DNA from: Nitrospinota bacterium
GTDB taxonomy: Bacteria; Tectomicrobia; Entotheonellia; J063
Direction: 5' to 3'
DNA length: 7,214 nt
Assembly (NCBI GenBank): GCA_003696125.1
Contig: RFHZ01000412.1
Span: forward strand, 1-7,214
Shown here: piece after piece, positions 1-7,214 of the stretch
Position numbering within the stretch: the first letter of the stretch is position 1
Layout: the number at the start of each line of letters is the position of its first letter
Made by a program: the position numbers and the translations under genes
The notes under the pieces: model-generated
The model's input: only the letters and a program-made list of their open reading frames with translations
Databases searched by the model: none
What the model was told of the DNA's origin: nothing

Positions 1-655
1 CGCCCATGCCGTTCTCTGCCTTGTTGTTGTACTGGATATCGATCATGTTCAGGGTCAGTTGCTCACCCGTGATCGAGCTGGTCATGGTCAACTGCACCTG
101 ACCACCATCGTTACTGAGAAGGCTCAGATTGGCACTGGTCACATGCCCCACTTTGGTCGACTCGGCCGAAGCGATGGAGACGTTGAAGGTCTCATTAGAA
201 CCCGCTCCCACCTGGAATGCCTTGTTGACAAAGGCTCCGGACAGGATCCGCTGCCCGTTGAAGGTCGTATTCTGGGCAATGGAGTCGAGCTCTTCCAGGA
301 GACGATCGATGTCGTTCTGGATCAGGCGCCGTGTCTCTGTGGTCTGTCCATCCGAGGCTGCCTGTACCGCCTTGGTGCGGATGGTGTTGACGATGTTGAT
401 CGCCTCTTCCAGCGCTCCATCCGCGATCTGGATCAGGGAAATGGCATCGGTCGCATTCTTGAGCGCCTGCCCGATACCGAGACCGGTGGCTTTGAGCTTA
501 TCGGCAATGGCCAGACCCGAGGCATCATCGGCCGCCTTGTTGATCCGCAGACCGGTGGACAGGCGTTCTAGCGATTCGGTGAGAGCCTTGTTCGTCTTGG
601 AAAGGTTGCGCTGGGCAATTAAGGAACCGATGTTTGTGTTGATGCTAAACGCCAT
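1..655 (-). CDS. fliC: Flagellin, N-terminal part (3' end beyond window)
   Basis: This is the filament subunit of the flagellum, exported unfolded by the flagellar type III system. The protein begins MAFSINTNIGSLIAQRNL, the typical D0 start of bacterial flagellins. The D1 signatures follow: LERLSTGLRINKAADDASGLA at about residues 29-49, and NTTFNGQRILSG at about 129-140. From about residue 150 the sequence becomes the variable central region. 218 codons lie in the window and the C-terminal D1/D0 part is missing. ATG at 655 is preceded by AAGGAGGA (670-663) with a 7-nt spacer, so the start is secure. The segment at about residues 89-108 (NTIRTKAVQAASDGQ) resembles Campylobacter/Helicobacter-type flagellins rather than the Salmonella QRVRELAVQ form. 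The gene lies downstream of motB on the same strand and has its own sigma-28 promoter and a long leader. The family is certain; the symbol is by function, as the paralogue number is unknown. Confidence 0.97.
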   Translation of the reverse strand, partial: MAFSINTNIGSLIAQRNLSKTNKALTESLERLSTGLRINKAADDASGLAIADKLKATGLGIGQALKNATDAISLIQIADGALEEAINIVNTIRTKAVQAASDGQTTETRRLIQNDIDRLLEELDSIAQNTTFNGQRILSGAFVNKAFQVGAGSNETFNVSIASAESTKVGHVTSANLSLLSNDGGQVQLTMTSSITGEQLTLNMIDIQYNNKAENGMG

Positions 656-706
656 ACTCCTATCCTCCTTGATCAGATGATGACGGGCTATCCTTGCCCT
701 TCTGTT

Positions 707-781
707 TCAGAGAGTTTTCTGCCGCTGTTTCTCTCTGCTCTCCTTTCCTCTCCAGGCTTTCACCTCCTTTCTCTTCTCCAT
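707..781 (-). CDS. Possible 24-codon upstream ORF in flagellin leader
   Basis: ATG at 781 is preceded by AAGGAGG (792-786) with a 4-nt spacer. It opens a 24-codon frame ending in TGA at 709-707, about 50 nt before the flagellin ATG. The peptide, starting MEKRKEVKAWRGKESREKQR, is almost entirely Lys, Arg, Glu and Gln. That fits the purine-rich RNA and argues that the peptide sequence itself may not be selected. The Shine-Dalgarno overlaps the candidate CsrA site. It could be a translated leader peptide that influences flagellin translation, or a chance frame in a purine tract. No homologue is recognised. Confidence 0.3.
   Translation of the reverse strand: MEKRKEVKAWRGKESREKQRQKTL
708..737 (-). 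repeat. Short inverted repeat in flagellin leader
   Basis: CAGAGAG at 708-714 and CTCTCTG at 731-737 are perfect 7-bp complements around a 16-nt loop. In the flagellin mRNA this could form a small hairpin that includes most of the upstream-ORF stop codon, about 40 nt before the flagellin Shine-Dalgarno. No U-run follows, so it is not a terminator. It may be chance in a low-complexity purine tract. Confidence 0.35.
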
Positions 782-817
782 TATTCCTCCTTGTACCCGG
801 TATTGACTTCGCTTATC

Positions 818-844
818 CTATCGGAGTAAACCGAAAAAACTTTA
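818..844 (-). promoter_or_regulatory. Sigma-28 (FliA) promoter of flagellin
   Basis: On the minus strand, TAAAGTTT (844-837) is followed after 11 bases by TCCGATAG (825-818). This equals TAAA-N15-TCCGATAG, against the sigma-28 consensus TAAA-N15-GCCGATAA. The first four bases and the CCGATA core match with exact spacing. It points at flagellin, the classic sigma-28 target, and predicts a transcript start near 811. Confidence 0.88.
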
Positions 845-912
845 GTCGAAAATACGATCGGTAATGCGTAGCGACAAGGGGCAGCAAAGTGCAAAAGGGT
901 TAGGAATAGCTA

Positions 913-1770
913 CTAAGGAGAGGAGCCGTGTAATAGCTCACGCACCGAATTCTGCAAGACCTCTGACTCTGCCGGTTGGGGGGTGGTCTTCGAGGAGGGG
1001 GTCCCTGGAGATGGGAGCCGGGTCAGGATGATCTCGACGCGCCGGTTCTTGCTCCGGTTCTCCGGTGTATCGTTGGGTACCAGGGGACGGTATTCCCCAA
1101 AGGCCATGGTGGCGATCTTCTCCGGGGCAACCAGGCCTCTGTGGATAAAGAACTTTACCACCGAGGCGGCACGGGCAGCGGAAAGCTCCAGGTTGGAGCC
1201 ATATCTCCCCCCCTTGCGAATCGGCACATTGTCGGTATGACCGGCGACGATGATATCCCAGTTGGATCGCCCGATGATCGAGCCGATCTTGGTGAGAAGG
1301 GGGATCATCTGGGGTTTGATTTCCGCACTCCCCGAATCAAAGGTGCTGTAGCCCATGAGACGCAGAACGATCTGATCATCCTGCGTCTCCACCTCGAAGA
1401 GCCCTTCGGCCTGGAGCTGGCTCAGCAGTTTATCGTCCAGTCCCAGCTTCTCTAACTCTGCCTCCAGCCGCCGGGTCGCTTCTTTGGACTCCAGCTCCCC
1501 GAATTTGGCCTGCTCGATCAGGGACTGGTCAAAGTCGCGTGCCACCATCTTCATCCCCTTGGGTCGCTCGTACACCGGGAGCTTGCGCTGCACGCCAAAG
1601 GCTTTTTCCAGTGAGCCGGCCAACTCTTTGAACTTGGCGACATCCATCTGGGAAAAGGAGAGGAGCAGCACGAAAAAGCAGAGCAACAGGGTCATCATGT
1701 CACCAAAGGTGACCATCCACTCTGGTGCCCCTTCTTCTCCTTCTTCCTGTTTGATCTCTTCCTCGGCCAT
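913..1770 (-). CDS. motB: Flagellar stator protein MotB
   Basis: This is the peptidoglycan-anchored half of the MotA-MotB ion channel that powers flagellar rotation. The 285-aa protein has an acidic cytoplasmic N-terminus (1-17) and a single membrane segment at about 19-40. Within the motif WMVTFGDMMTLLL, Asp24 matches the essential ion-binding Asp32 of E. coli MotB. The plug/linker follows at about 41-60, then a charged helical stretch at about 85-122. The OmpA-like peptidoglycan-binding domain spans about 135-250: FDSGSAEI at 144-151, GHTDN with Asp180, LSAARA with Arg200, NRSKNRRVEI at 238-247. A Ser/Pro-rich tail of about 33 residues ends the protein. ATG at 1770 has a modest AAAGGG at 1784-1779 and follows motA by 16 nt. 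Proton versus sodium use cannot be settled from the sequence. Confidence 0.97.
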   Translation of the reverse strand: MAEEEIKQEEGEEGAPEWMVTFGDMMTLLLCFFVLLLSFSQMDVAKFKELAGSLEKAFGVQRKLPVYERPKGMKMVARDFDQSLIEQAKFGELESKEATRRLEAELEKLGLDDKLLSQLQAEGLFEVETQDDQIVLRLMGYSTFDSGSAEIKPQMIPLLTKIGSIIGRSNWDIIVAGHTDNVPIRKGGRYGSNLELSAARAASVVKFFIHRGLVAPEKIATMAFGEYRPLVPNDTPENRSKNRRVEIILTRLPSPGTPSSKTTPQPAESEVLQNSVRELLHGSSP

Positions 1771-1786
1771 TATCCACGCCCTTTCT

Positions 1787-2557
1787 CTACTTCTTTCCCA
1801 GTTCCATCTTCTGCTGCTCGGTCATGAGGAACGATTTCAGCTTGTCTTCGAGCAGTCTCGGATTCATGCCCAGTTGCAGGCCCTTGAGGCCTTCGGCGAT
1901 GACCATATTGAGCAAGATCTCCTGTTCGGTGCGCTGCTTGAGCTTGCCGGCCATGGGGAGGGCAAAGAGGTTGGCGATGAGGGCCCCATAGAAGGTGGTG
2001 ATCAGGGCGATGGCCATTTTGGGGCCGATGGTTTTGGGATCTTCCATGGTGGAGAGCATCTGCACCAGCCCGATCAGGGTACCGATCATGCCGAAGGCCG
2101 GGGACCACTTTCCCATCGCCTTAAAGACCTCCTGCCCCACCTTATGCCGTTGCTGTACGGCAAGGTTTTGGAGCTGGAGGATGCTATTTAACTCCTCGGC
2201 ATCCACCCCATCTGCCACCAGCATGAGTCCCTTTTGCAAAAAGGGATTGGTCACGTTCTTGGCCTCGTTTTCCAGGGCGAGCTGTCCATCCTTACGCACG
2301 ATGACGGCGAGCTGGATGAACTGCCGGATCAGGTCTATGGGATCCTCCTCCTTGGCCAGAATCAGCTTCTTGGTGACCTTGAGCACGGAGAGGACCTGTT
2401 TTAAGGGGAAGTTGATGAGGGTGGCGGCCAGGGTTCCCCCTCCCACGATCATGATGGAAGGGATGTCGATGAAGCCACCGATGCCCCCTCCCATGACCAG
2501 AGAGGTGCCGATAAGCCCGATACCAGCAAGAATCCCGACGATCGTAGCAATATCCAT
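1787..2557 (-). CDS. motA: Flagellar stator protein MotA
   Basis: This is the membrane half of the stator, whose cytoplasmic loop pushes on FliG of the rotor. The protein is 256 aa from MDIATIVGILAGIG. Hydrophobic segments lie near 1-22, 30-50, 150-170 and 182-202, with the large cytoplasmic loop at about 60-145. Arg88 and Glu96, eight residues apart, match the FliG-facing Arg90/Glu98 of E. coli MotA. Pro153 (WSPAFGMIGTLIGLV) and Pro201 (FALPMAGKL) match the conserved Pro173 and Pro222. An upstream in-frame ATG at 2587 would add ten residues (MRESRWRRTE) inside the end of fapA. ATG at 2557 is preferred because GGAGGAGGA, within the last fapA codons, sits at proper distance and the family starts here. 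Confidence 0.97.
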   Translation of the reverse strand: MDIATIVGILAGIGLIGTSLVMGGGIGGFIDIPSIMIVGGGTLAATLINFPLKQVLSVLKVTKKLILAKEEDPIDLIRQFIQLAVIVRKDGQLALENEAKNVTNPFLQKGLMLVADGVDAEELNSILQLQNLAVQQRHKVGQEVFKAMGKWSPAFGMIGTLIGLVQMLSTMEDPKTIGPKMAIALITTFYGALIANLFALPMAGKLKQRTEQEILLNMVIAEGLKGLQLGMNPRLLEDKLKSFLMTEQQKMELGKK

Positions 2558-2558
2558 C

Positions 2559-3980
2559 TCAGTCCTCCTCCATCGCGATTCCCGCACCGATTCCCCAGTT
2601 CTCTAAACTCTCTTCCACCGTTGTTTCCAGTTTCTGTATCTTGATCATCCCGTCTGCCCGGTAGAACATCACACCGTGCAGGGGATGAGAGATTTCGAGG
2701 GAGAGATCCCCGATACAGATGGTCACCCCCGGATAGACGGTCCCGGTAGCGACAATGGTACCGACCTGTAGCGGAGTGCGGGGGAGCAGATGGGAGCGCC
2801 GGGCAAAGTAAGACTCCAGGGAATGCAGGGCAGCCTGGCAGCTCTTTAGCTCCTCCTGGGCCTGATGCAGGACCGGTGGAGAAAGCTCCCTCTCCCCATA
2901 CCTGTCCAGGAGGGCCTGGTCTGCCTTGAGAACGGCCGCAATATGCGCCAGCGTCTCCCGGCTGGTGGTGGCATCGAAGAAAGGGGAGGAGATGGCGATA
3001 CGGGTAGGGACCTCGTTCTCTGAACCGAGGTCATGGGCGACGATCTGCTCCAACGCCTGGACCGTCCCTCCAATGATATGTCCACTCCTCCCACCGACCA
3101 GGACCTTTCCCTGTGTCTGGAGATGGGAGTAGCGGACCCCCTGGGAGAGGCAAATATCTCCCTGGGCTTCGATACGGATCGAATCGACAAACACCCCCTT
3201 CACCCTTCCCCCGCTCTTGATGCGGCCTTTCTGCTTCCCAAAGACGTTGCCATGAAGGGTGATGGACCCGCCGGCCTCGATCTCGGCCTCATCGACCACC
3301 CCGTAGATGGTCACATCCTGCGCGCATTTGATGCTGAAGCCGCTCTTCACATCACCCCGGATGACCAGACTCCCCACAAAGGTCAGGTTGCCGACGGAAA
3401 AATCGACATCCCCTTCCAGGGTATAGGTCGGATAGACACTCAGCACGTGGTCGGAAAGCACCGGGTGGCCGTTGACCAGGGCGATGAGGGCATTGCCGTC
3501 TTCCGAGACTCTTACATTGGCTCCGGCGGCAGGAAGAACCGCTTCTCCTCTGTCCGGGGGGATCGGTTTACCGGTGACCGTCTGCCCGGGTTTGCGCTGT
3601 TCTGGAGGAATCTTGGCCACCAGGATCTGTTCCTGGATGACATTGGCAATGGTCTCCAGGTTGTAAAAATCGACCCGTCCGTCCGGCAAACGCCTCGGTT
3701 TTCGCTCCTGCTCCAGGGGGAAAAAATACTCCACCCCCGCTTCGGGGGGGATACCCTGGGCCACCAGGTACCGCTGCCCGGGCTGGCGAGCCTCGGCCAG
3801 GTCTTGCAGGAAAAAGCGATCGATTCCCACCCTTACCCCTGCCGCCTCCAGATCGGCGAGCATCTGGTCAAGGGACAGGGGCTGGTCCGTAGCAAAGGTC
3901 ATCCAGGCCTGCATCTCATCAGGGGAGAGGGTAATGGTATACGCTCGTTCTTGCATCGTCTCCTGCTCCACCTCTCTCAT
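2559..3980 (-). CDS. fapA: FapA-family (DUF342) flagellar assembly protein
   Basis: FapA proteins are polymer-binding, beta-helix-like cytoplasmic proteins linked to flagellar assembly. In Vibrio vulnificus FapA supports flagellation and is controlled by EIIA-Glc. The 473-aa protein has an N-terminal region (1-115), then the DUF342 signature: VAKIPPEQRKPGQTVTGKPI at 121-140, followed by PPDRG. Short Gly-rich repeats (GDV, GNLTFVG, AGGSI, SGGRV, GGTV) run from about 188 to 315 and suggest a right-handed beta-helix. A likely helical hairpin lies at about 340-395, then a C-terminal beta domain. The start at 3980 overlaps the STAS stop as ATGA. The alternative Met9 (3956) also has a purine-rich region upstream and cannot be excluded. 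No signal peptide or membrane segment is seen. The name is shared with unrelated functional-amyloid genes. Confidence 0.9.
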   Translation of the reverse strand: MREVEQETMQERAYTITLSPDEMQAWMTFATDQPLSLDQMLADLEAAGVRVGIDRFFLQDLAEARQPGQRYLVAQGIPPEAGVEYFFPLEQERKPRRLPDGRVDFYNLETIANVIQEQILVAKIPPEQRKPGQTVTGKPIPPDRGEAVLPAAGANVRVSEDGNALIALVNGHPVLSDHVLSVYPTYTLEGDVDFSVGNLTFVGSLVIRGDVKSGFSIKCAQDVTIYGVVDEAEIEAGGSITLHGNVFGKQKGRIKSGGRVKGVFVDSIRIEAQGDICLSQGVRYSHLQTQGKVLVGGRSGHIIGGTVQALEQIVAHDLGSENEVPTRIAISSPFFDATTSRETLAHIAAVLKADQALLDRYGERELSPPVLHQAQEELKSCQAALHSLESYFARRSHLLPRTPLQVGTIVATGTVYPGVTICIGDLSLEISHPLHGVMFYRADGMIKIQKLETTVEESLENWGIGAGIAMEED

Positions 3981-4321
3981 GTCTCCTGCATCGCTCTGGC
4001 TATTGCCGCCTCTTCCCGCTCAAAGATCTCGAAGAAGCTGGTGAGTTTGGTCATCTCCAGCAGGGCATAGACCTGCTGCGGGACCTGGACCAGTCGCATC
4101 GTCCCTCCCTGCCTGCGGATGGTGCTGAAGCTGGCCACCAGTGCTCCCAGTCCAGAGCTATCGATGAAGGTGACCTCCTTCATGTTGACGACAAAGTGGC
4201 GATACCCCTGGGTGATGGCTTCATTGACCAGCCTGCGCAGTGTATTACGGATGGAGAAGTCGATCCGGTCCATCAGGGTGATCACGACCACGTTCTCTAC
4301 GACTTTACTGGTGGCTTGCAT
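3977..4321 (-). CDS. STAS-domain anti-sigma factor antagonist (HsbA/SpoIIAA-like)
   Basis: This is a single-domain STAS protein of 114 aa, the usual size of SpoIIAA/RsbV/HsbA switch proteins. Such proteins bind a partner when unphosphorylated and release it when a serine is phosphorylated. The motif FIDSSGLGAL at 52-61 holds the candidate phospho-acceptor, Ser55 or Ser56, and GGTMRLVQVP at 72-81 is the typical following strand. ATG at 4321 lies inside the end of the upstream gene (17-nt overlap), with GAAGGAGAG just before it. The upstream gene encodes both a PP2C phosphatase and an HATPase domain, so it is the likely phosphatase and kinase for this protein. In Pseudomonas the equivalent HsbA binds FlgM and a diguanylate cyclase. 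The partner here is unknown. Confidence 0.93.
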   Translation of the reverse strand: MQATSKVVENVVVITLMDRIDFSIRNTLRRLVNEAITQGYRHFVVNMKEVTFIDSSGLGALVASFSTIRRQGGTMRLVQVPQQVYALLEMTKLTSFFEIFEREEAAIARAMQET

Positions 4322-5987
4322 TGCTCTCTCCTTCTCTTTTCGCCTGCCGCTTTTGCGAAAAGTATTTCACTATCCTGACTTCATTCCCCTGGGAATTATA
4401 GGTGCACTCATCCATACAGGACCGGGCAATCAGTATACCCCGTCCATGTGCCATGAGACGGTGATCCGCATCGCGCGGGTCCGGGATATCCTGCCAGTCA
4501 AACCCTTTGCCCTCATCCCGGATGATAAAGACCGCCTTCTCGGTGTCGATACTGTAGGTAACAGTAACCTTACGCGAAGCGTACGGCTCGCGCTGCCGGC
4601 GTTCGGCCAGCAGGTCGTCAAAGGTCCCGGCTTCCATGGCCAGGCTCTTCCGTGCATAGCCGATATCGAGATTTCCATGCTCGATGGCGTTCATGATCAT
4701 CTCGACCAGGCTGATCCGGATCGCCTCCCGTGCTTCGGCCTGGCATCGATCCTCCAGGGCAGAGAGGATCTCATCGACCAGGGGGAGAACCAGGGCAGGA
4801 TCGTTGGCTATCTGCACGACCCGGGAACGGTTCATGGCCTGAAACTCGATGGTAATAAAGCTCACGTCGTCAGAGAAGCGATGCCTGGTAAAGCGCTGTA
4901 AGTGTTGCCATAACCGATCCCTGGCCTGCCCCAAATCCACCCCGATCACCCCGGCAAACAGCTCCTGTAACCCCTCTACCCCCAAAGGGATTCCGGTGGT
5001 AGAGGTCGCCTCGATTACCCCATCTGTCACCAGCAGAAGACGGTCGGCAGAGGCGACCTGGATGACCTCTTCCTCTAACCCCAGCTCTGGGGTATCGAAA
5101 ATCCCCAAAAAGGTCCCGGTGGCGGACAGGGGGGTGATGGTCTGCTCTTGACGGCAGAAGTACAGGGGAGGGGGATGACCGGCATTGGCATAGCAAAGGA
5201 GCTGCCGTATCGGGTCGTACACAGCCACAAAGGCGGTAATATAATCCCCTTCTGTGGTGAGCTGGAGGAAGGCCTCATTGAGACGCTCCAGGGTGGAACG
5301 GGGAGATTCGGTCTCCCGGATATACTGGCTGAAGAGCGGTTTTAAAATGGTGGCTACCATGGCCGAAAGCACCCCATGACCGCTCACATCGGCGATGATG
5401 CAGGCGGTCTTCTCCCCGGTCAGGGGGATGAAATCGAAAAAATCCCCTCCCACCTTGCTATAGGGATGGAAGAAGGTCTCCACCAGCATCCCCACCGTCT
5501 GCACGTCTTTGGGGAGCAAAAAGCGCTGGTACTTGCTCGCCGCTTCCAGCTCTCGTTCCAGCAGGGCCTTTTTCTCCGAAACCTCATCCAGCAAGAGCTT
5601 GGCCTGGATGGCGTTCTTGACCTTTAGCGGGAGCAGGATCTTCGCTTCCCTCTCCGGAAGGGATTTGATAAAGTAGTCGTAACTCCCCATGACCAGGGCC
5701 TGCTGAATCGATTCGATATTCTCCAGCGAGGAGTATACGATCACCGGGATAGGAGAGAGGAAGGGATCAGCCTTTAACCTGGCCAGCACCTCGAAACCAT
5801 CCATGACCGGCATCATCAGATCTAAGATGATGAGATCTATCCGGTGTTCCCTGACCTGCTCGAGGGCCTGTACCCCGTTCTCCGCCTCTACAAAGCGATA
5901 GCCGTATCCCTGCAGGAGCTTCTTCACCAAAGTGCGGTTCACCCTGGCATCATCGACCACCAGGATCGTCGGTTCTACCCGGGCCAT
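4305..5987 (-). CDS. Response regulator with PP2C (SpoIIE/RsbU) phosphatase and HATPase domains, HsbR-like
   Basis: This is a 560-aa cytoplasmic signalling protein with three domains. The receiver domain (about 6-125) has acid-pocket Asp12/Asp13, phospho-acceptor Asp56 in LIILDLMMPVMDG, Ser86 and Lys108. A helical linker (about 126-160) follows. The PP2C domain (about 165-383) keeps its metal-binding motifs: GGDFFD with Asp182/Asp185, ADVSGHG with Asp200, TDGVIEA with Asp322, and SDDVSF with Asp373/374. The HATPase_c domain (about 395-542) has N-box Glu429/Asn433 in VEMIMNAIEHGN, DEGKGF at 491-496 and HGRGI at 514-518. Both phosphatase and kinase therefore look intact, as in Pseudomonas HsbR. 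The start at 5987 has AAGGGAGGG just upstream. A longer frame from 6020 has no Shine-Dalgarno and lies only about 10 nt from the predicted transcript start. It is the first gene of the operon under a perfect sigma-28 promoter. Confidence 0.95.
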   Translation of the reverse strand: MARVEPTILVVDDARVNRTLVKKLLQGYGYRFVEAENGVQALEQVREHRIDLIILDLMMPVMDGFEVLARLKADPFLSPIPVIVYSSLENIESIQQALVMGSYDYFIKSLPEREAKILLPLKVKNAIQAKLLLDEVSEKKALLERELEAASKYQRFLLPKDVQTVGMLVETFFHPYSKVGGDFFDFIPLTGEKTACIIADVSGHGVLSAMVATILKPLFSQYIRETESPRSTLERLNEAFLQLTTEGDYITAFVAVYDPIRQLLCYANAGHPPPLYFCRQEQTITPLSATGTFLGIFDTPELGLEEEVIQVASADRLLLVTDGVIEATSTTGIPLGVEGLQELFAGVIGVDLGQARDRLWQHLQRFTRHRFSDDVSFITIEFQAMNRSRVVQIANDPALVLPLVDEILSALEDRCQAEAREAIRISLVEMIMNAIEHGNLDIGYARKSLAMEAGTFDDLLAERRQREPYASRKVTVTYSIDTEKAVFIIRDEGKGFDWQDIPDPRDADHRLMAHGRGILIARSCMDECTYNSQGNEVRIVKYFSQKRQAKREGESNASHQ

Positions 5988-6036
5988 GTACCCTCCCTTA
6001 CTTCGTCTATGCCTTACCATGCCACTACCGCTCTTC

Positions 6037-6063
6037 TTATCGGCAGGTCGAGGAAAAAGTTTA
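6037..6063 (-). promoter_or_regulatory. Perfect-consensus sigma-28 promoter of the motility operon
   Basis: On the minus strand, TAAA at 6063-6060 is followed after exactly 15 bases by GCCGATAA at 6044-6037, identical to the FliA consensus. Predicted transcription starts near 6030, giving a leader of about 43 nt to the ATG at 5987. This places the partner-switch genes, fapA and motAB in the late flagellar class. Confidence 0.93.
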
Positions 6064-6092
6064 CGAGAGGAGAGATTTTTCTCTAAACTTTT
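6055..6092. repeat. Inverted repeat formed by two back-to-back -35 elements
   Basis: AAAAGTTTA at 6055-6063 and TAAACTTTT at 6084-6092 are perfect 9-bp complements, 20 bp apart. Each arm contains the -35 element of one divergent sigma-28 promoter. The centre holds AGAGATTTTTCTCT (6071-6084), itself palindromic. The symmetry is explained by two like promoters facing away from each other, but a dyad-binding regulator is also possible. Confidence 0.6.
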
Positions 6093-6111
6093 ACTCCGGG
6101 ATGGACGATAA
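6084..6111 (+). promoter_or_regulatory. Sigma-28-type promoter of the small divergent gene
   Basis: TAAA at 6084-6087 is followed after 16 bases by GACGATAA at 6104-6111. Relative to TAAA-N15-GCCGATAA there is one base change in the -10 and one extra spacer base. The extended -35 (TAAACTTTT) equals that of the divergent perfect promoter. Predicted start is near 6118, about 39 nt before the ATG at 6157. Confidence 0.65.
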
Positions 6112-6156
6112 AGGGGATGGAGGAATACGTCTGAAGGAAGAGAGGGGTGAAAAGAG

Positions 6157-6384
6157 ATGAGTTCCTTATCGCTGCGAGTCGAGAATATCGTGCGTACCTA
6201 CGCCAAGCAGCTCCGGCTGAATAAGCTCGGTGGAGCGCGCAAGGCGAAAGAGGGTGCAGAGTCGGATAGCGACGATGTCCGGGTCAGCATCTCGGCTGAG
6301 GGGAAACAGAAACAGATCCAGAGCCAGATTGCCTCGCAACTGGCCGATGAGCTGGCACGCCAACATCACCACCAGCAGTCATAG
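6157..6384 (+). CDS. Small protein of the flagellar regulon, possibly FlgM-like
   Basis: This is a 75-aa soluble protein with no signal or membrane segment. ATG at 6157 has AGGGGTG at 6143-6149 with a 7-nt spacer. An amphipathic basic helix (about residues 4-25, with VENIVRTYAKQLRLNKLGG) is followed by an acidic linker. Next comes VRVSISAEGKQKQ (about 42-54) and a C-terminal helix with IASQLADELARQ (about 58-69). The SISAEGK segment and final helix recall the middle and last helix of the anti-sigma-28 factor FlgM. However, the protein is shorter than usual FlgM (about 90-100 aa) and lacks a clear equivalent of the preceding sigma-binding helix. Its sigma-28-type promoter and its position facing an HsbR/HsbA-like pair favour a flagellar regulatory role. 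FlgM identity is tentative; it may be a separate small family. Confidence 0.75.
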   Translation: MSSLSLRVENIVRTYAKQLRLNKLGGARKAKEGAESDSDDVRVSISAEGKQKQIQSQIASQLADELARQHHHQQS

Positions 6385-6389
6385 TTTCC

Positions 6390-6410
6390 TTCCCACTGAT
6401 CGTCAGGGAA
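6390..6410 (+). other. Weak hairpin after the small gene
   Basis: TTCCC (6390-6394) pairs with GGGAA (6406-6410), and inside it TGA (6397-6399) pairs with TCA (6403-6405), leaving a two-base bulge. No U-run follows, so it is at best a weak or factor-assisted transcript end for the small gene. The rest of 6411-6460 shows nothing recognisable. Confidence 0.25.
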
Positions 6411-6460
6411 ACGCTCCTCTCCAGGCCTACCTTACCCTCTTCCCAGGTCATGATTTCACC

Positions 6461-6490
6461 TTGACTCCTCTCCCCCTGTTTGGCTAATAT
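6461..6490 (+). promoter_or_regulatory. Candidate sigma-70 promoter of the lyase gene
   Basis: TTGACT at 6461-6466 matches five of six -35 bases. TAATAT at 6485-6490 matches four of six -10 bases, with an 18-bp spacer. It would start transcription near 6497 and give a leader of about 78 nt. Unlike the other promoters here it is of housekeeping type, consistent with a gene outside the flagellar regulon. Confidence 0.45.
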
Positions 6491-6499
6491 AGGCCAGAA

Positions 6500-6554
6500 A
6501 GCCACAGCCAATCTTGCTTCACTTTCCTTTCGCCTCTTCGCTATCCCTGTGGCT
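6500..6554 (+). repeat. Inverted repeat in leader of the lyase gene
   Basis: AGCCACAG (6500-6507) and CTGTGGCT (6547-6554) are perfect 8-bp complements separated by 39 nt. They lie between the candidate promoter and the Shine-Dalgarno AAGGAGG (6563-6569). The pair could form a stem in the mRNA leader or serve as a split operator. No known riboswitch core is recognised. Confidence 0.35.
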
Positions 6555-6574
6555 ATATGGTAAAGGAGGAGGGC

Positions 6575-7214
6575 ATGACCGAACTGGTACGACGATCCAA
6601 TCTGATTATGCCGGTGAACCAGCGACGTTTTGTGGAAAAGGCGTATCAACGGGGTGCAGACGCCATTACCCTCGATCTGGAGGACTCGGTTCCGGTAGCA
6701 GAAAAAGAGCGGGCCCGCGGGTTGATCAAAGAGGCCATCCCCCTGGTAGCCCGGGGTGGAGCCGATGTGCTGGTCCGGATCAACAAGCCGATGGCGGCCG
6801 AAGATCTGGATGCCGCCATTCATCCTGGCCTCCAGGGTATCGCCTATCCCAAAGCCGAAACGGCAGAGGAGATAGCAGAGATCGATCAGATCATCGGAAA
6901 GCTGGAGGCAGAACGGGGGATCCCACCAGGCACGGTCCAGCTGGCGGTCTCTGTAGAGACGGCTCTGGGCATACTGAACGCCTGGGAGATCGCCCGCGCC
7001 TCCTCCCGTATCGTCTCTCTGCAGGTCGGACCGGAAGACCTGGCCTATGACCTGGGGATCGAGGCAACGGTGGAAGGGAAAGAGCTGCTGCATGCCAAAT
7101 CGCATATCATCCTGGTGGCCCGGGCGGCCGGCATCGTTCCCCTGGGTCTGATGGGAACCCTGGCCGATTTTCGTGATCTGGAAGGACTGGAGCGGAGTGC
7201 GCGCGAGGCGTACC
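6575..7214 (+). CDS. HpcH/HpaI aldolase / citrate lyase-beta (CitE-like) family CoA-ester lyase, N-terminal part
   Basis: Members of this family cleave or form C-C bonds of CoA thioesters such as malyl-, citramalyl- or methylmalyl-CoA in a Mg2+-dependent (beta-alpha)8 barrel. The first 213 codons are present and the gene runs off the window. Seen motifs are RSNLIMPVN at 7-15, GADAITLDLEDSVP at 27-40, VRIN with Arg68, YPKAET at 91-96, VSVETALG with Glu128, and VGPEDLAYDLG with Asp155. Arg68, Glu128 and Asp155 match the substrate-binding Arg and the Mg2+ ligands of CitE-type lyases. ATG at 6575 follows AAGGAGG (6563-6569) by 5 nt. The exact substrate cannot be told. It is not obviously related to the flagellar genes, and its promoter looks housekeeping, so it probably marks the edge of the motility locus. 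Confidence 0.92.
   Translation, partial: MTELVRRSNLIMPVNQRRFVEKAYQRGADAITLDLEDSVPVAEKERARGLIKEAIPLVARGGADVLVRINKPMAAEDLDAAIHPGLQGIAYPKAETAEEIAEIDQIIGKLEAERGIPPGTVQLAVSVETALGILNAWEIARASSRIVSLQVGPEDLAYDLGIEATVEGKELLHAKSHIILVARAAGIVPLGLMGTLADFRDLEGLERSAREAY

Follow-up and report, generated by a model that had tools for sequence, protein, structure and literature searches.

Partner switches in which a receiver, a PP2C phosphatase and a HATPase domain are joined in one protein have been described in Pseudomonas aeruginosa and in Shewanella. HsbR of P. aeruginosa has this architecture, and FlgM is sequestered in the circuit to which it belongs (PMC6482189). For CrsR and HsbR, the HATPase domain was also reported to act as an anti-sigma factor for RpoS (PMC6482189). 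FapA, a flagellar assembly and polarity protein, is likewise known to read a phospho-switch protein, since FapA of Vibrio vulnificus was reported to bind EIIAGlc only in its dephosphorylated form (PMC6877527). Our literature search found no paper on an anti-anti-sigma factor together with FapA, nor on a STAS domain together with motAB. To our knowledge, the regulation of FapA outside Vibrio is largely unexplored.

The window analysed here is contig RFHZ01000412.1, positions 1-7,214 (7,214 nucleotides), of assembly GCA_003696125.1 from a Nitrospinota bacterium (Tectomicrobia; Entotheonellia; J063). On its minus strand five genes succeed each other with overlapping or almost touching ORFs, like a translationally coupled unit, and all five products were borne out by Pfam. 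The first gene (4305..6020) encodes a receiver-PP2C(SpoIIE)-HATPase_c_2 phosphatase/kinase of 571 residues (Response_reg 2e-25, SpoIIE 2.6e-42, HATPase_c_2 9e-17). Its motifs are intact: the phosphoacceptor of the receiver lies within LIILDLMMP, the PP2C domain carries GGDFFDF, IADVSGHG and DDVSFI, and the HATPase domain has an N box EMIMNAIEHGN, a G1 box DEGKGFDW and a G2 box HGRGILIAR. It is followed by a STAS anti-anti-sigma-like protein of 114 residues (3977..4321; Pfam STAS 5.5e-22), whose Ser55-Ser56 sit in FIDSSGLG, and by fapA (DUF342; 2559..3980; Pfam FapA, 7e-58, and FapA_N), the ORF of which shares 4 bases with that of STAS. Then come motA, for a PomA-like stator protein (1787..2587; Pfam and NCBIfam), and motB (913..1770; MotB_plug and OmpA); a flagellin gene is next after motB. 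All components of a partner-switching module of the SpoIIAB/RsbW-RsbV-RsbU type are present, namely a PP2C (SpoIIE) domain, HATPase_c_2 and a STAS protein with a phosphorylatable serine. Judged by this architecture, the receiver-PP2C-HATPase protein and its STAS neighbour are well supported as a putative partner switch.

The initial annotation had placed this pair at the head of a sigma-28 operon with fapA and motAB, and had given the divergent neighbour a promoter of the same type. Both assignments held. Besides the Pfam matches and intact motifs, the operon has a site with exact sigma-28 consensus, TAAA-N15-GCCGATAA (full site TAAACTTTTTCCTCGACCTGCCGATAA; 6037..6063, minus strand), and a motif scan found a sigma-28-like site with one mismatch, TAAA-N16-GACGATAA, facing the other way (6084..6111, plus strand). 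For DNA of this length, the expected number of sites carrying one mismatch or none is about 0.02. The flagellin gene has a site with two mismatches at 844 on the minus strand. In the whole genome of 4.18 Mb, exact sites with N15-16 spacing occurred eight times and the reversed control pattern not once; one other exact site was inspected, at L292, and no flagellar gene stands beside it. The genome also encodes FliA, which scores over its family cut-off; with the TAAA-N15-GCCGATAA promoter, both marks of a sigma-28 regulon were thus found. The genome assembly consists of 990 contigs with an estimated contamination of 7.98%.

Like HsbR-HsbA, the locus combines a receiver-PP2C-HATPase protein with an adjacent STAS protein carrying a phospho-serine motif, and it has a flagellar connection. 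The proposal of an HsbR/HsbA-like switch therefore stood as far as domain architecture and the adjacent STAS gene are concerned, but not for close kinship or gene order. The operon protein is about 24-26% identical to Pseudomonas proteins of this architecture, and its STAS gene comes after the kinase gene, whereas in the Pseudomonas loci it comes before; for these two reasons orthology with HsbR/HsbA is not shown. The present switch is furthermore linked to fapA-motAB, with flgM not adjacent. CrsR-CrsA of Shewanella has the architecture in common as well, and the CrsR HATPase can sequester RpoS; the context here, however, is a sigma-28 stator operon. Another flagellar setting was seen in a Pseudomonas genome, where a STAS and receiver-PP2C-HATPase pair follows a fliE-fliF-fliG-fliH-fliI-fliJ-like cluster (L031 1878-9680).

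The divergent ORF of 75 residues (6157..6384, plus strand) had been taken for a possible FlgM-like protein. Our data did not confirm this, and assign it instead, provisionally, to the DVU0524 family ("FlgM-associated protein", NCBIfam NF041863; E 4.7e-10, 39.7 bits at a cut-off of 40). The conserved D..V.IS.E.K motif and the flagellar neighbourhood agree with this family, whereas the score lies just below the cut-off and flgM is not adjacent. No Pfam family matched the ORF, PF04316 included, nor did TIGR03824, and profile-profile comparison with FlgM gave a probability of 2%, a short V.xS.xA patch being the only common part; on these grounds FlgM identity was ruled out. Matches to the DVU0524 family were present in five of the 290 genomes surveyed, this ORF included. 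The other four lie beside flgM, after a fliS-like gene, near fliS/flgN-like and response-regulator genes, and beside response-regulator genes. Downstream of the 75-residue ORF, an HpcH/HpaI aldolase (citrate lyase beta-like) gene at 6557-7213 is apparently unrelated.

The true flgM of this genome (G000:C575), which scores over the TIGR03824 cut-off, is found on another contig in a flgJ-flgM-flgN-flgK hook/junction cluster, with flgJ-like and flgN/flgK-like neighbours. A switch adjoining flgM was not seen in this genome. The initial annotation had itself counted a bona fide flgM elsewhere, in a Pseudomonas-type arrangement, against its proposal, and the gene found here comes close to that case. 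In four Pseudomonas loci, a small FlgM profile, built from five divergent sequences and liable to miss members, detected no FlgM.

Conservation within the class was followed in four other genomes, G001, G002, G003 and G004. G003, which belongs to another family, has all five genes in the same order and on the same strand; the kinase/phosphatase protein is 55% identical, FapA 46% and part of MotA 82%. Its operon is preceded by a sigma-28 site with one mismatch, at a distance of 64 bases from the first ORF. The divergent neighbour in G003 is a receiver/sigma-54 activator gene where the DVU0524 ORF stands in the window, and the facing gene pair is therefore not conserved; no match to the DVU0524 family was found in this genome. 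Gene-order conservation, on which the initial proposal had been made to depend, thus extends to the five-gene operon but not to the ORF facing it. STAS, motA and motB of G003 (L102 8246-8647 and 5258-6875) are each broken over two frames, probably by sequencing errors in the assembly. G001 and G002 gave no FliA over the cut-off and no FlgM, and G004 has FliA and FlgM and gave no FapA match. In the contigs of 80 relatives, tblastn found no match to FapA, MotA, MotB or flagellin near the switch.

We also surveyed 160 motA or fapA neighbourhoods in other phyla, together about 1.7 Mb (window and G003 excluded). With a profile seeded on the STAS protein of the operon, which may miss divergent members, only six STAS genes were detected. 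Four of these six were followed directly by fapA on the same strand, where about 5% was expected for each. The corresponding naive P of 1e-4 ignores shared ancestry and, since the four cases represent two lineages with two genomes each, the evidence at the level of lineages is weaker than this value. G100 and G238, both of one phylum, have the order stas-fapA-motA-motB, and no HATPase was detected beside STAS in the regions examined. In G136 and G273, both of another phylum, a HATPase_c_2 kinase with a degenerate receiver-like N-terminus is followed by stas and then by fapA, which encodes 1132-1145 residues. Such very long FapA proteins lie at L231 2163-5561 and L264 2190-5627, the former of which contains a Jag_N domain and two stretches of FapA solenoid.

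Counting that of the window, STAS-fapA adjacency recurs in three phyla, and the SSG phosphosite is unchanged in all fapA-linked STAS proteins compared. STAS is absent beside most of the surveyed fapA genes, and the order fapA-motA-motB occurs without STAS too. In several lineages (L185, L186, L268, L176) this order without STAS is followed by a small PilZ-like ORF; G238 has both this arrangement and the stas-fapA-motAB operon. The three STAS-linked pairs were placed apart in a FapA tree. The linkage may have been gained independently or may have a single origin. The coupling to motAB and fapA noted at the outset for this one locus was substantiated by the conserved order in G003, and STAS directly upstream of fapA recurs in distant lineages. 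The role given to FlgM as genomic partner was not substantiated, as fapA and not flgM recurs beside STAS; centred on motA and fapA, the survey informs on STAS beside fapA and not on the frequency of STAS beside flgM.

Gene order and recurrent adjacency suggest FapA as the target. Our preferred reading, which we put forward tentatively, is that a phosphorylation-controlled partner-switching module acts on FapA. The receiver would take up a signal, for which chemotaxis or hybrid kinases are possible sources, and set the balance between HATPase kinase and PP2C phosphatase on Ser55/Ser56 of STAS. In one of its phospho-forms, most probably when dephosphorylated, STAS would bind FapA and alter the localisation or activity of FapA, and with it flagellar or stator assembly. 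Since sigma-28 drives the operon, the switch would give feedback at a late stage, after completion of the hook. A phospho-dependent contact between STAS and FapA is plausible because FapA recurs as the partner and EIIAGlc of V. vulnificus provides a precedent. In our best reading the two would be formally alike, FapA being bound by a dephosphorylated phospho-switch protein in Vibrio and, as gene order suggests, by STAS here; EIIAGlc is, however, a PTS protein unrelated to STAS. A shared operon can also reflect a common stage of expression instead of such a contact. That STAS proteins of partner switches directly target FapA in several phyla, making it a hub for different phospho-switches, is a possibility to which we give slightly less credence. 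If true, this would give partner switches a target of a new kind, structural or polarity-related and outside sigma-factor pathways. Through a conserved STAS-FapA module, signalling by phosphorylation would then be coupled to the assembly of flagella and the supply of stators once sigma-28 is active.

Dephosphorylated STAS could instead bind the genome's real FlgM and free FliA, as in an HsbR/HsbA-like circuit with positive feedback on sigma-28 genes. The domain architecture is identical to that of HsbR (PMC6482189), Ser56 is conserved, flgM and fliA are both encoded and the operon itself is of sigma-28 type. We nevertheless regard this circuit as doubtful: flgM stands together with flgJ, flgN and flgK on a different contig, the gene after STAS is mostly fapA in a survey of the surroundings of motA and fapA, and both the low identity and the reversed gene order separate the locus from Pseudomonas. 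Sequestration of FlgM may still occur, and STAS may be linked to flgM elsewhere, but this reading has lost its genomic support here. The presence of fapA and then motAB in the window, G003, G100 and G238 would also agree with a STAS protein acting directly on the stators MotA/MotB, or with a switch merely co-expressed with fapA-motAB whose target is a different one, such as the c-di-GMP enzymes on which HsbA acts through HsbD; STAS-fapA without motAB in the examined regions of G136 and G273 speaks against this, and we think it rather unlikely. An intact HATPase_c_2 domain in a CrsR-like architecture (PMC6482189) might finally itself be the anti-sigma factor, relieved by STAS, with the position in the stator operon setting the timing only. 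This would leave the recurrence of STAS beside fapA in other phyla unexplained, and we consider it improbable.

Genes for chemotaxis proteins were observed close to several of these loci. Upstream of kinase-stas-fapA lie cheB in G136 and cheR-cheB in G273. A hybrid histidine kinase of G003 (L102 2324-5215), which has two receivers and apparently an HPt region, adjoins cheB and converges on motB; this kinase is a candidate phosphodonor for the switch.
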